NCBI GenBank assembly: GCA_024278555.1
Contig: JAJRSX010000041.1
Coordinates: forward strand, 1 to 12,697
DNA: 12,697 bases
DNA from: a bacterium
GTDB taxonomy: Bacteria > CG2-30-53-67 > CG2-30-70-394
Direction: 5' to 3'
This document shows, piece after piece, positions 1,021 to 7,694 of this stretch. The notes under the pieces were generated by a model. It searched no databases, was not told the DNA's origin, and saw only the letters and a list, made by a program, of their open reading frames with translations. Positions within the stretch are counted from its first letter, which is position 1, and each line of letters opens with the position of its first letter. The position numbers were made by a program, and so were the translations under genes.

Positions 1021-1108
1021 GGGAACACGAAAGCACGAAAAGTTCAAAATACGAAAGAAGTCAATCGGTTGTTTTTCGTGCCTTCCCCCTTTCGTGTCTT
1101 CGTGTCCC
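1021..1108. repeat. Intergenic palindromic element with CACGAAA units
   Basis: The left arm (1021-1040) carries two tandem CACGAAA units, with a further ACGAAA at 1051-1056. The right arm (1090-1108) is an imperfect reverse complement built of TTTCGTG-type units. A second, perfect 9-bp pairing exists inside the element: GCACGAAAA (1033-1041) with TTTTCGTGC (1073-1081), so alternative folds compete. Spacer between the outer arms is 49 nt. It shares its plan, but not its sequence, with elements at 4752-4929 and 7532-7694. I recognise this style of palindrome from environmental genomes but know no named family or function. Confidence 0.65.
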
Positions 1109-1151
1109 GGCGGTGTGACGGTTGCCGGAACCCTCAGGGCTATTGCCGCCG

Positions 1152-1169
1152 GCCCTCTTCGGGCTTTTT
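1152..1169 (+). terminator. Weak terminator-like hairpin reading on the plus strand
   Basis: GCCC (1152-1155), a 5-nt loop, GGGC (1161-1164) and five T residues (1165-1169) form a minimal intrinsic-terminator shape in the plus direction. It sits 10 nt beyond the pgsA stop, but its T-run is on the wrong side to end pgsA transcription, and no plus-strand gene precedes it. It could block antisense transcription into pgsA, or be chance. Confidence 0.25.
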
Positions 1170-1178
1170 CCCCGACCT

Positions 1179-1814
1179 TCAGCCCGCCGGCGCACCCGGG
1201 CCGGTGCGCCAGTAGTTGAGGACGTACTGCACCCCGGAGACCACCGCCAGGACCATGGCGACCCAGAGGAAGAAGGTGCCCATGGGGCGGAAGGGGATGA
1301 AGGGGAGGAACCAGATGTGGTCCGCCAAGAGCATGAGGATGGCGGTGATCTGCGCCCCCACCTTCCACTTGCCGAGCGACTCGGCGGCCAGGACCACCCC
1401 CTCGCTCGCCGCTAGCGACCGCAGCCCGGTGACCGCGAACTCGCGGCCGAGGATGATGATGACAATCCACGCCGACGCCCGCTCGATCTCCACCAGCATC
1501 ACCAGGGCGGCGGTGATCAGGACCTTGTCGGCGATCGGATCGAGGAGCTTGCCGAGGCGCGAGACGAGGTGGTAGCGGCGCGCCAGGTAGCCGTCAAAGA
1601 AGTCGGTGACCGCCGCGAAGGTGAAGGTCCACCCGGCCGCCCAGTAGGTGTGGTGGTCCACGATGATCGGGTAGTGGAAGAGGACGAAGAGGGGGACGAG
1701 CAGCACCCGCAGGAGGGTGAGGCCGTTCGGCAGGTGCTTGAACCACGGCGCCGGAAGCGGCTCGCCCACCACCGTGGCCGCCTCCCCCGCCGTCCCTGCG
1801 TCGTCCCTGCTCAT
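1179..1814 (-). CDS. pgsA: CDP-diacylglycerol-glycerol-3-phosphate 3-phosphatidyltransferase
   Basis: This 211-residue membrane protein makes phosphatidylglycerophosphate from CDP-diacylglycerol and glycerol-3-phosphate, the first committed step to phosphatidylglycerol and cardiolipin. The CDP-alcohol phosphotransferase signature is complete: D71, D74-G75, A78-R79, G88, D92, D96. The usual N-terminal 'PN.LTLLR' helix begins at P29, so about 27 residues precede the normal start of the family. The ATG at 1814 is still preferred because it overlaps the kdsC stop (ATGA). Hydrophobic segments fall near residues 33-52, 60-71, 97-110, 115-130, 152-170 and 180-198. It is the last gene of the Kdo unit and is probably co-transcribed with kdsC. 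Related family members (e.g. phosphatidylserine synthase) are less likely given the N-terminus and spacing. Confidence 0.92.
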   Translation of the reverse strand: MSRDDAGTAGEAATVVGEPLPAPWFKHLPNGLTLLRVLLVPLFVLFHYPIIVDHHTYWAAGWTFTFAAVTDFFDGYLARRYHLVSRLGKLLDPIADKVLITAALVMLVEIERASAWIVIIILGREFAVTGLRSLAASEGVVLAAESLGKWKVGAQITAILMLLADHIWFLPFIPFRPMGTFFLWVAMVLAVVSGVQYVLNYWRTGPGAPAG

Positions 1815-4929: not shown

Positions 4930-4943
4930 CCTTACTACCGCCC

Positions 4944-6605
4944 CTACACCGCCATCCCCGCCTCGGCGGCGCGGTGCTGGTGGGCCAACGCCGCGGCGAC
5001 GAAGTCGCGAAACAGCGGATGAGGGTTGCGCGGCCGGGAGGTGAACTCGGGGTGGAACTGGGTGGCGACGAACCACGGATGGTCCGGAAGCTCGGCGATC
5101 TCCATCAGCTCCATGCCGTCGCCCTCGTAGCGGCCGGTGAACCGCATCCCCGCCGCCTCCAACCGCTCGCGGTAGGCGTTGTTGAACTCGTACCGGTGGC
5201 GGTGGCGCTCGTCGACCCGGGTGGCACCGTACGCCAGGGCCGCCAGCGACCCCTCGGTGAGGAGGCAGGTGTAGGCGCCCAGCCGCATCGTCCCCCCCTT
5301 CTCGCTCTCCTCGGTGCGGTGCTGGTGCTCGCCGGTGCGCGGATCGATCCAGTCGGTGACCAGGTTGATCACCGGGTGGGGCGGGTCGGCGACAAATTCG
5401 GTGGAGTGGGCGCCGTCGAGGCCGCAGCAGTGGCGGGCGAACTCGATCACCGCGCACTGCATCCCGAGGCAGATCCCAAGATACGGCACGCCGTGCTCGC
5501 GGGCGTAGCGCACCGCCTCGATCTTCCCCTCCACGCCGCGCTCGCCGAAGCCGCCGGGGACGAGGATTCCGTCGCAGCGGGCGAAGGCGTCCGCCACGTT
5601 GGTGGCGTCGATGGACTCGGCGTCGACCCACTCGATCTTCACCCGCGCGTGGTTCGCCAGGCCTCCGTGGGTGAGGGCCTCCCGGAGCGACTTGTACGCC
5701 TCCTTCAGCTCCACGTACTTGCCGACGATGGCGATGGTGGTGGTCTGGCTCGGGTGGTGGATCCCCTCCACCACCTGCTCCCAGTCGGAGAGGTCGGCGG
5801 GCCCCGCCTTGAGGCGCAACCGGTCGATGAGAATGCGGCCGAGCCCCTCCTCGTGGAAGTAGAGGGGGAGCTCGTAGATCGACTTCACGTCCAGGGCCGA
5901 GATCACCGACCGCTCCTCGACGTTGCAGTAGAGGGCGATCTTCCTGCTCATCTCCGCCGGCAGCCGCTGGGTGGTGCGGCACAGGAGGACGTCGGGCTGG
6001 ATGCCGATGGCGCGCAGCTCCTTCACCGAGTGCTGGGTCGGCTTGGTCTTCATCTCCCCGGCGGCGGCGATGTACGGCACCAGGGTGAGGTGGACGTAGG
6101 CGACGTTGTCGCGCCCCACGTCGAGCTGGAACTGGCGAATCGCCTCCAGGAAGGGGAGCGACTCGATATCGCCGATGGTGCCGCCGATCTCGACGATGAC
6201 GATGTCGTACCCCTCGCCCACCCCATAGATCGCCTGCTTGATCTCGTTCGTAATATGAGGAATAACCTGAACGGTTCCCCCTAAATACTCGCCGTGACGC
6301 TCTTTCTCGATGACGGCGTGGTAGATCTTCCCGGTGGTGTAGTTGTTGTTCTTGGTCAGCCGGGCGTGGACGAAACGCTCGTAGTGGCCGAGGTCGAGGT
6401 CGGTCTCGGTGCCGTCGTCGGTGACGTAGACCTCGCCGTGCTGGTACGGGCTCATGGTGCCCGGGTCGATGTTGATATAGGGGTCGAGCTTCTGGATGGT
6501 CACCGAGTAGCCGTACGACTCGAGCAGCGTCCCCATGGAGGCGGCGGCGAGCCCCTTGCCCAGGGAGGAGACCACCCCGCCGGTCACGAAAATGTATTTG
6601 GTCAT
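4944..6605 (-). CDS. pyrG: CTP synthase
   Basis: PyrG aminates UTP to CTP using glutamine and ATP. The 553-residue protein is full length. The N-terminal synthetase domain (about 1-270) has [16 protein letters not shown], with the ATP-binding loop at 8-18, and [16 protein letters not shown] (38-53). The class I glutamine amidotransferase domain (about 290-545) has the oxyanion loop GGFGERG (351-357), nucleophile C379 in GICLGMQ, and H518 and E520 in FHPEF. The ATG at 6605 overlaps the kdsB stop (ATGA), and GGGAG lies 6 nt upstream within kdsB. Placing it directly after kdsB makes sense because KdsB consumes CTP. The open frame beyond 6605 is a different frame inside kdsB and was ignored. Confidence 0.97.
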
Positions 6606-7375
6606 GTCTGGCTCCCGTGCTGCTCGTGTTGATGGTGCGATCGAACCACGAGGGCGCGCACCCGTTCAAGGTCGTCCGGAGTGTCCACCCCGACGGAGTC
6701 ATGGACGGTCTCCACCACCCGGATCGCAAAGCCCGCCTCCAGGACCCGAAGCTGCTCCAGCCGCTCGACCCGCTCCAGGGGCGACGGGGGGAGCTCGGTA
6801 AGCCGCTGGAGAAAATCGGCCCGGTAGCAATAGAGGCCGAGGTGCTTGTAGGCCGGACACTCTTCCAGGGTCGTCGCCTCGCGCGGGTGGGGGATCGGGG
6901 CGCGGGAGAAGTAGAGGGCGTCGCCGCTCTCCCCGCGCACCACCTTCACCACGTTCGGGTCACGCCACTGGGCCTCATCGTGGAGGCGGGTGCAGAGGGT
7001 CGACATGACCACCGTCGCCTCCGCCAAGAGCGGCTCGATCGCCTGCTCCACCACCTGCGGGTCGATGAGCGGCTCGTCTCCCTGCAGGTTGACGACAACC
7101 TCCGCGCCGATCCGCCGCGCCGCCTCGGCCACCCGGTCCGTCCCCGACGGGTGGTCGGGGGAGGTCACCACCGCCTCGCCGCCGAACCCCGCCACCGCCG
7201 TTGCGACGCGCCCGTCGTCGGTGGCCACCACCACCCGCTCCACCGACGGCACGCGGCCGGCGGCCTCGTAGACCCACTGCACCATGGGGCGGCCGTCGAT
7301 CTGCACCAGCGGCTTACCCGGCAGGCGACTGGAGGCGTAGCGGGCGGGGATGACGGCGAGGATACGGACGGCCAT
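6602..7375 (-). CDS. kdsB: 3-deoxy-manno-octulosonate cytidylyltransferase (CMP-Kdo synthetase)
   Basis: KdsB couples Kdo to CMP from CTP, giving the activated sugar used by the Kdo transferase at the inner membrane. The 257-residue protein has the nucleotide-binding signature [15 protein letters not shown] (9-23), VATDD (50-54), [10 protein letters not shown] (74-83), NLQGDEPLI (95-103) with the metal-binding Asp, [16 protein letters not shown], and the C-terminal [10 protein letters not shown]. All are typical for KdsB rather than other CMP-sugar synthetases. It ends in a His/Gln-rich tail (about residues 246-257) that overlaps the pyrG start. It is the first gene of the Kdo unit. No strong ribosome-binding site or promoter is evident in the 382 nt upstream. 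Confidence 0.96.
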
Positions 7376-7531
7376 GGGCGACTCGAAGCGGGAGCCCTAC
7401 GGTAACGCCGAGGCCCCGGTTCGGCCACATGCCCGGAACGGATCGACCACGGGGGACACGGGGGGAGGTGGGGGACAAAGGACGACCGGCGTGTTCCGCC
7501 GTGACGGCGGCGCGGGCGATGGTCCGGCTTT

Positions 7532-7694
7532 TTATTCGCCACGCTCCACGGAAGGGCACGGAAGTAGGGGTCTCCCGTTGGGTTGAGCGAGAGACCCGGA
7601 CCCCCTTCCTCCTTGAACAGACGGTAGACGCCACCTGGTTCTCTTCCCCACCGCCGCACGCTCTCGCCCCTTCCGTGGGTTCCGTGGCCAATAA
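7532..7694. repeat. Palindromic element with CACGGAA units between clpC and kdsB
   Basis: The left arm starts at 7532 (TTATTCGCCACG, then CCACGGAAGGGCACGGAAG). The right arm (7667-7694) is its imperfect reverse complement and reads on the minus strand TTATTGGCCACG, then CCCACGGAAGGGG. The outer 12 nt match at 11 positions; inside them a small gap is needed to align the units. The spacer contains a further 7-bp hairpin, GGGTCTC (7568-7574) with GAGACCC (7591-7597). The outer end touches the clpC terminator. Confidence 0.6.

Follow-up and report, generated by a model that had tools for sequence, protein, structure and literature searches.

The window, the whole stretch of 12,697 nt of bacterial DNA analysed here, holds three intergenic palindromes that follow one plan and yet are built from three different repeated words. 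The question raised by this locus is what such palindromes are and by what means they are spread or maintained; the preliminary description had taken them for a dispersed class and had named a REP-like transposase, hairpin-primed copying and slippage as conceivable mechanisms.

Three palindromes between genes

The three palindromes are present in the three spacers where they had been described, with minor corrections of position only, and all of them lie between genes recognisable by Pfam, in agreement with the claim that none is inside a gene. The flanking genes, by Pfam, encode a PIN-domain protein, a CDP-alcohol phosphatidyltransferase (pgsA-like), a HAD hydrolase (read as KdsC), a SIS-CBS protein (read as KdsD/KpsF), a DAHP synthetase I family protein (read as KdsA), a CTP synthase, a cytidylyltransferase (read as KdsB) and a Clp ATPase (read as ClpC). 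The loops, previously put at 49, 116 and roughly 90-110 nt, measure 49, 116 and 107 nt. The arms had been described as tandem 7-nt units and the words are indeed purine-rich and 7 nt long, but a period of 7 nt holds only for GTAGAAA, which is repeated head-to-tail; the period here is 8 nt for CACGAAA, and CACGGAA recurs at both 9 and 10 nt.

Palindrome 1 consists of a left CACGAAA arm of two units with a period of 8 nt (CACGAAAGCACGAAA, 1026-1040, forward strand) opposite a right CACGAAR arm (TTTCGTGTCTTCGTG, 1090-1104, reverse strand), and extra inner units lie within its 49-nt loop near 1050-1056 and 1073-1079. The DNA hairpin gives z = -2.9 and -3.3, one value per strand. Around it extends a dispersed element (957-1168, forward strand) with outer ends of the form GAGGAGCAGCGGAAAT and ATTTCCGCTGATCC, which are degraded in the window copy. 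Palindrome 2 has two GTAGAAR arms of 32 nt with 94% complementarity, the left (4751-4782, forward strand) being tandem with a period of 7 nt and the right (4899-4930, reverse strand) lying where a congener keeps CCCCTTTCTACTTTCTACC; they enclose a loop of 116 nt (4783-4898, no strand assigned) that has no clear alignment to other GTAGAA cores, and z = -6.2.

Palindrome 3 has a left CACGGAA arm (CACGGAAGGGCACGGAA, 7547-7563, forward strand), the outermost unit of which is damaged in the window copy, and a right CACGGAA arm (TTCCGTGGGTTCCGTG, 7671-7686, reverse strand) of two units, where most aligned copies have three. The 107-nt loop between them (7564-7670, no strand assigned) is the conserved core of the CACGGAA element. 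The folding energy of palindrome 3 is by itself unremarkable (z close to 0), yet it is a member of a dispersed family. A lone left CACGGGG array lies outside the palindrome (7448-7468, end approximate, forward strand), as does a terminator-like stem-loop after the Clp ATPase gene (7698-7730, reverse strand), which is outside the CACGGAA element and conserved in the congener. Elsewhere in the window, between the KdsC- and KdsD-like genes (2341-2785), there is a short gene pair, a possible HicA and a HicB-like antitoxin that scores slightly under the Pfam cut-off; the matching spacer of the congener has a GTAGAA-like array in place of this pair.

Dispersal and age of the families

Across the whole 3.06 Mb genome the tandem-word patterns CACGAARRNCACGAAR, GTAGAARGTRGAARG and CACGGAANN{0,3}CACGGAA have 54, 60 and 180 matches, respectively, against 0 for the reversed control pattern of each, which excludes chance genome-wide. 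A three-unit arm counts as two matches, so that the number of CACGGAA arms is below 180. The proposed dispersed class of one plan with different units is borne out by these counts, and none of the words proved to be single-copy, each having tens of matches or more. Palindrome 1 is part of a dispersed element of about 210 bp with homologous copies, and palindrome 3 of another of about 160 bp. Copies of the former occur in contigs C6, C152, C59 and C56, with 87-94% identity over 161-224 nt, and weaker copies are found in further places; the core of the latter has 28 matches, likewise counted genome-wide, of which 17 span at least 97 of the 104 core bases, and the mean column identity of the element across 12 aligned copies is 84%. 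Loops of the GTAGAA family, to which palindrome 2 belongs, are less conserved.

Several arrays of this genome lie about 500 nt or less from contig ends (for example in C26, C31, C48, C51, C104 and C165), so that assembly may have broken at the repeats, in which case their copy number would be underestimated. The left flank of the CACGGAA element (L181-L202) is a chain of repeat modules, namely a unit array, GTCACCGGTGG... and GCGCAACGGCCTGGAAGGCG.

Beyond this genome, at least 100 stretches in GTDB genomes match a 27-nt pattern of the CACGGAA arm. Among the matches listed, the arm occurs mostly in Marinobacter, Ectothiorhodospiraceae MAGs and other gammaproteobacterial MAGs; Oceanisphaera, Halomonas, Litchfieldella, Aeromonadales and a Candidatus Cloacimonadota MAG contribute single cases, and several come from a MAG labelled as a Halobacteria archaeon, a label that is doubtful. 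The arms of these listed matches are alike, and their loops, 16 to 510 nt long, contain unrelated DNA, other repeats or additional arms. Given that these external loci were selected by their CACGGAA arms, family proportions among them are biased; the rules of polarity, nesting and spacing described below, being rules of arrangement, are less affected by this selection. Iterated purine-rich words of this type appear to be common in environmental genomes, and such short tandem repeats are scattered widely: the pattern CACGAARRN occurs in 44 of 290 diverse genomes, many with one match only. A phage, plasmid or viral origin was rejected, since plasmids and phages gave no blastn match of the element and viral contigs contained no exact arm. 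Within the open library searched, the unit strings tried are printed nowhere; an earlier description, for instance in a subscription journal, may exist.

Comparison with a congener separates the families by age. The kdsB-clpC spacer that carries palindrome 3 is 254 nt long here and 17 nt in the congener, with matching flanks, so the syntenic comparison that had been proposed finds the element missing there; a second spacer, on contig C56, measures 466 nt here and 66 nt in the congener. Target-site duplications could not be identified at these empty sites because the flanks are too diverged. The CACGGAA pattern has 2 matches in the congener, of which one is a decayed element, and 0 in six other class members, and no palindrome 1 element was found within 328 kb of congener sequence. 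GTAGAA has 29 matches in the congener and nearly none in the remaining class; in the congener kdsA-pyrG retains one GTAGAA arm, and the nadD locus retains paired arms around a different loop. On this comparison palindrome 3 has spread recently, as palindrome 1 probably has too, and palindrome 2 belongs to an older family that is partly retained in place in the congener. Fixation at the same place across distant relatives, which had been named as the mark of a gene-specific regulatory structure, is not seen.

The retention of GTAGAA arms at these two loci is what would be expected if the palindromes were hairpins serving the host, such as terminators, mRNA stabilisers or arrays binding chromosome proteins, that had multiplied through their usefulness. 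The position of the arrays outside genes is consistent with this: the external loci have 69 arrays within called genes where 230 are expected from gene cover, although in the source genome, at 67% GC, gene calling by ORF length is unusable and the same test uninformative. Within the external loci the arrays are moreover less frequent between divergent genes (11 of their 88 spacers, where 48 of all 196 are divergent), a deficit also expected from neutral insertions. A role for the host is nevertheless improbable for several reasons: counts are very uneven across congeners, palindrome 3 folds no better than shuffled sequences, and two-sided change is seen in only 1 of the 44 pairs predicted in the 12-copy alignment, so that compensatory change in the CACGGAA core was rejected. 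Membership of an Rfam family was rejected as well, the matches at gathering thresholds being one tRNA and nothing else.

Arrangement of the arms and mechanism of spread

The arms converge in all unit families tested. Among neighbouring arrays no more than 400 nt apart, the order '-+' is seen in 1 of 70 cases in the source genome and in 1 of 137 in the external loci, the rest being +-, ++ or --, and the sample from the source genome, which consists of 490 kb of stretches, many of them picked for carrying arms, has 32 same-family pairs that converge and 0 that diverge. Palindromes also tend to lie within one another. The external loci have 9 complete nested pairs and 0 side-by-side pairs, with linkers of 13-46 nt whose left and right lengths are mostly similar; the source genome sample has one complete nested pair and one side-by-side pair together with many partial nests, such as that on C29, in which CACGAAR, CGCAAAG and CACGGAA arms follow one another and then recur in reverse order. 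Within arms, unit steps of 9 and 10 nt are almost equally frequent for CACGGAA (44:43 in the source genome and 199:193 externally) and for CGCGGAA (15:15), and the most frequent unit linkers in these arms are TC and, externally, GRA.

Two of the mechanisms named at the outset fare poorly against these data. Hairpin-primed or fold-back copying finds no support, given that the bases adjoining the arms on either side show no mirroring and that only the unit linkers correlate, weakly and in the source genome alone, between left and right. Slippage is unlikely to have spread the palindromes since the linkers vary while the units and the 9 and 10 nt spacing are retained.

The best explanation, on which our judgement is evenly poised, is that the palindromes are non-autonomous mobile elements, similar to MITEs or REPINs, with the iterated arms as their recognised ends. 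Such ends would consist of a 7-nt purine-rich word iterated 2-4 times with a fixed spacing, converging on a loop whose content would be of little importance, and the families CACGGAA, CGCGGAA, CACGAAA, CACGAAG, CACGGAC, CGCAAAG, CACAGAG, GTAGAAA and others would most simply be variants of one kind. Each family iterates its own word in both arms, as expected with a sequence-specific arm-binding protein, and this agreement within an element, together with the constant spacing, gives the arms the look of binding sites; it is suggested that a protein binds them and that this same protein may mobilise the element. New copies would settle preferentially in or at the arms of old copies, giving rise to concentric nests and to sites where one family has taken the place of another, and this would reflect a preference in landing rather than survival. 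Dispersal, polarity, nesting, the fixed spacing and the contrast of empty and filled orthologous sites are visible in the sequences themselves. Homologous dispersed copies, CACGGAA counts that are high here and near zero in the relatives, empty sites in the congener and in a Marinobacter pair, the shared 27-nt arm with unrelated loops, and the rules of polarity, nesting and 9/10-nt spacing are all consistent with mobile elements. Against this count the lack of a linked transposase, of any autonomous copy seen and of an evident target-site duplication in one clean pair; furthermore, the external sample, selected by CACGGAA, is unrepresentative in its mix of families, and GTAGAA cores align unclearly.

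That clean pair comes from two assemblies of Marinobacter persicus, in which one orthologous site is bare in one assembly and filled by a CACGAAA palindrome in the other, with no target-site duplication evident. At a second site the same assemblies have a CACGGAA and a CACGAAA palindrome, respectively, between identical flanks. Related copies at L303 show a CACGGAA palindrome that adjoins the leftover right arm of an older palindrome, the new palindrome coinciding on one side with the older arm. Either insertion or recombination through the arms can produce these patterns. By eye, the region of M. persicus L252, L303 and L341, with many small genes and rich in palindromes, has the look of a cassette array.

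Recombination through the arms is the strongest rival, and a serious one, though we consider it rather unlikely. It holds that no dedicated enzyme is involved and that the arms act as short homologies for RecA-type conversion or template switching, by which loops and arms are copied between places and existing arms are replaced or invaded. This would account for the replacements and for part of the nesting, and is consistent with the switch of family between identical flanks in M. persicus, the one-sided replacement at L303 with the older right arm remaining, the 3 copies, out of 12 aligned, whose core is flipped against its outer flanks, and the failure to find transposase linkage. However, the empty side of the first M. 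persicus site has no arm with which to recombine, and neither have the two empty congener spacers; in addition, left-right conversion inside elements is weak or lacking (the left-right correlation of unit linkers is weak in the source genome, p = 0.02, and has p = 0.26 externally).

If the palindromes are mobile elements, a broader reading may be offered, tentatively and with rather less than even confidence: that they represent a class of mobile DNA present over several phyla, in which the iterated word of the arms is a family address and each copy is aimed at the centre or an arm of an earlier one, intergenic spaces thereby growing into concentric palindromes through the action of an enzyme not yet recognised. 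Were all such arms to terminate a single kind of mobile element, much unexplained intergenic DNA would gain a common rule of converging arms, fixed spacing and nesting, and close strain pairs would allow a direct search for both the mechanism and the missing enzyme.

Comparison with known systems

REPINs have two conserved inverted arms, a less conserved spacer and an intergenic position; there are several families per genome, single arms are remnants, and one REPIN is occasionally inserted within or next to another (Bertels and Rainey 2011, PMC3116915). The palindromes share the inverted arms, the variable spacer, the intergenic sites, the multiple families, the single-arm remnants and the insertion within or next to one another, and an inverted doublet is likewise their dispersed unit, as seen in the 32 converging pairs and the conserved CACGGAA cores. 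They differ in that a REPIN has REP sequences, with their link to RAYT genes, as its arms, whereas the arms here are direct tandem 7-nt words and not short imperfect palindromes tagged GTAG or CGTC (the GTAGAA family includes GTAG, but without a REP hairpin), and in that concentric nesting is here the rule. Inverted pairs of the type GTAGGAGCGGG...CCCGC that resemble GTAG-tagged REPs occur separately in this genome (L093:2358-2444 and L158, about 6104-6190).

This match in layout (PMC3116915), and the presence of a Y1 gene in 17 of 20 arm-rich genomes, raise the possibility that the elements are mobilised in trans by a Y1 (RAYT) transposase encoded elsewhere in the genome. This is very improbable. 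The remaining three arm-rich genomes, including that of the isolate Marinobacter daqiaonensis, have no Y1 match; no like arm pair surrounds the Y1 gene at any of 16 Y1 loci examined; and the arm itself is not a short GTAG-tagged palindrome. The linked TnpA-REP (Y1) gene that had been suggested finds no support among the four Y1 genes of the source genome, none of which has a like arm pair: two of them (L133:1141-2165 on C185 and L134:904-1918 on C170) are bounded by GGGGTCAG repeats, the latter by TTGCAAG repeats as well, and the C185 gene is bracketed by two unlike arrays, CGCAGAG and CACGAAG. Linkage to Y1/RAYT genes was rejected on these grounds.

The TIRs of TIRtrons flank Y1-type genes, some of them with GGGGWSAS (Di Nocera and colleagues 2013, PMC3733652). 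The palindromes resemble them as dispersed inverted repeats that are single, dimeric or clustered, but in this genome GGGGWSAS agrees with the separate GGGGTCAG repeats and not with the palindrome arms, and the arms do not flank a TIRYT gene at the Y1 loci examined. TAACTGA heptamers are repeated in tandem in Beggiatoaceae and cyanobacteria, with 169 sets of direct repeats of this type and one inverted set in the Maribeggiatoa genome (PMC4679880); the likeness lies in intergenic 7-nt tandem units common to distant lineages, and the difference in that the Maribeggiatoa sets are mostly direct, whereas inverted converging pairs are frequent here.

Unlike bacterial MITEs, the elements have ends built of iterated words and largely arbitrary loops. 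No parental insertion sequence or other autonomous transposon sharing the arm ends was seen in the loci read, and no target-site duplication was evident in the one clean pair from M. persicus. With MITEs they share short length, inverted ends, the lack of coding sequence, dispersal and presence/absence polymorphism. In summary, judged from sequence, the elements are REPIN-like in layout but without the REP arms and the RAYT linkage of REPINs, and fall within a loose definition of MITEs.
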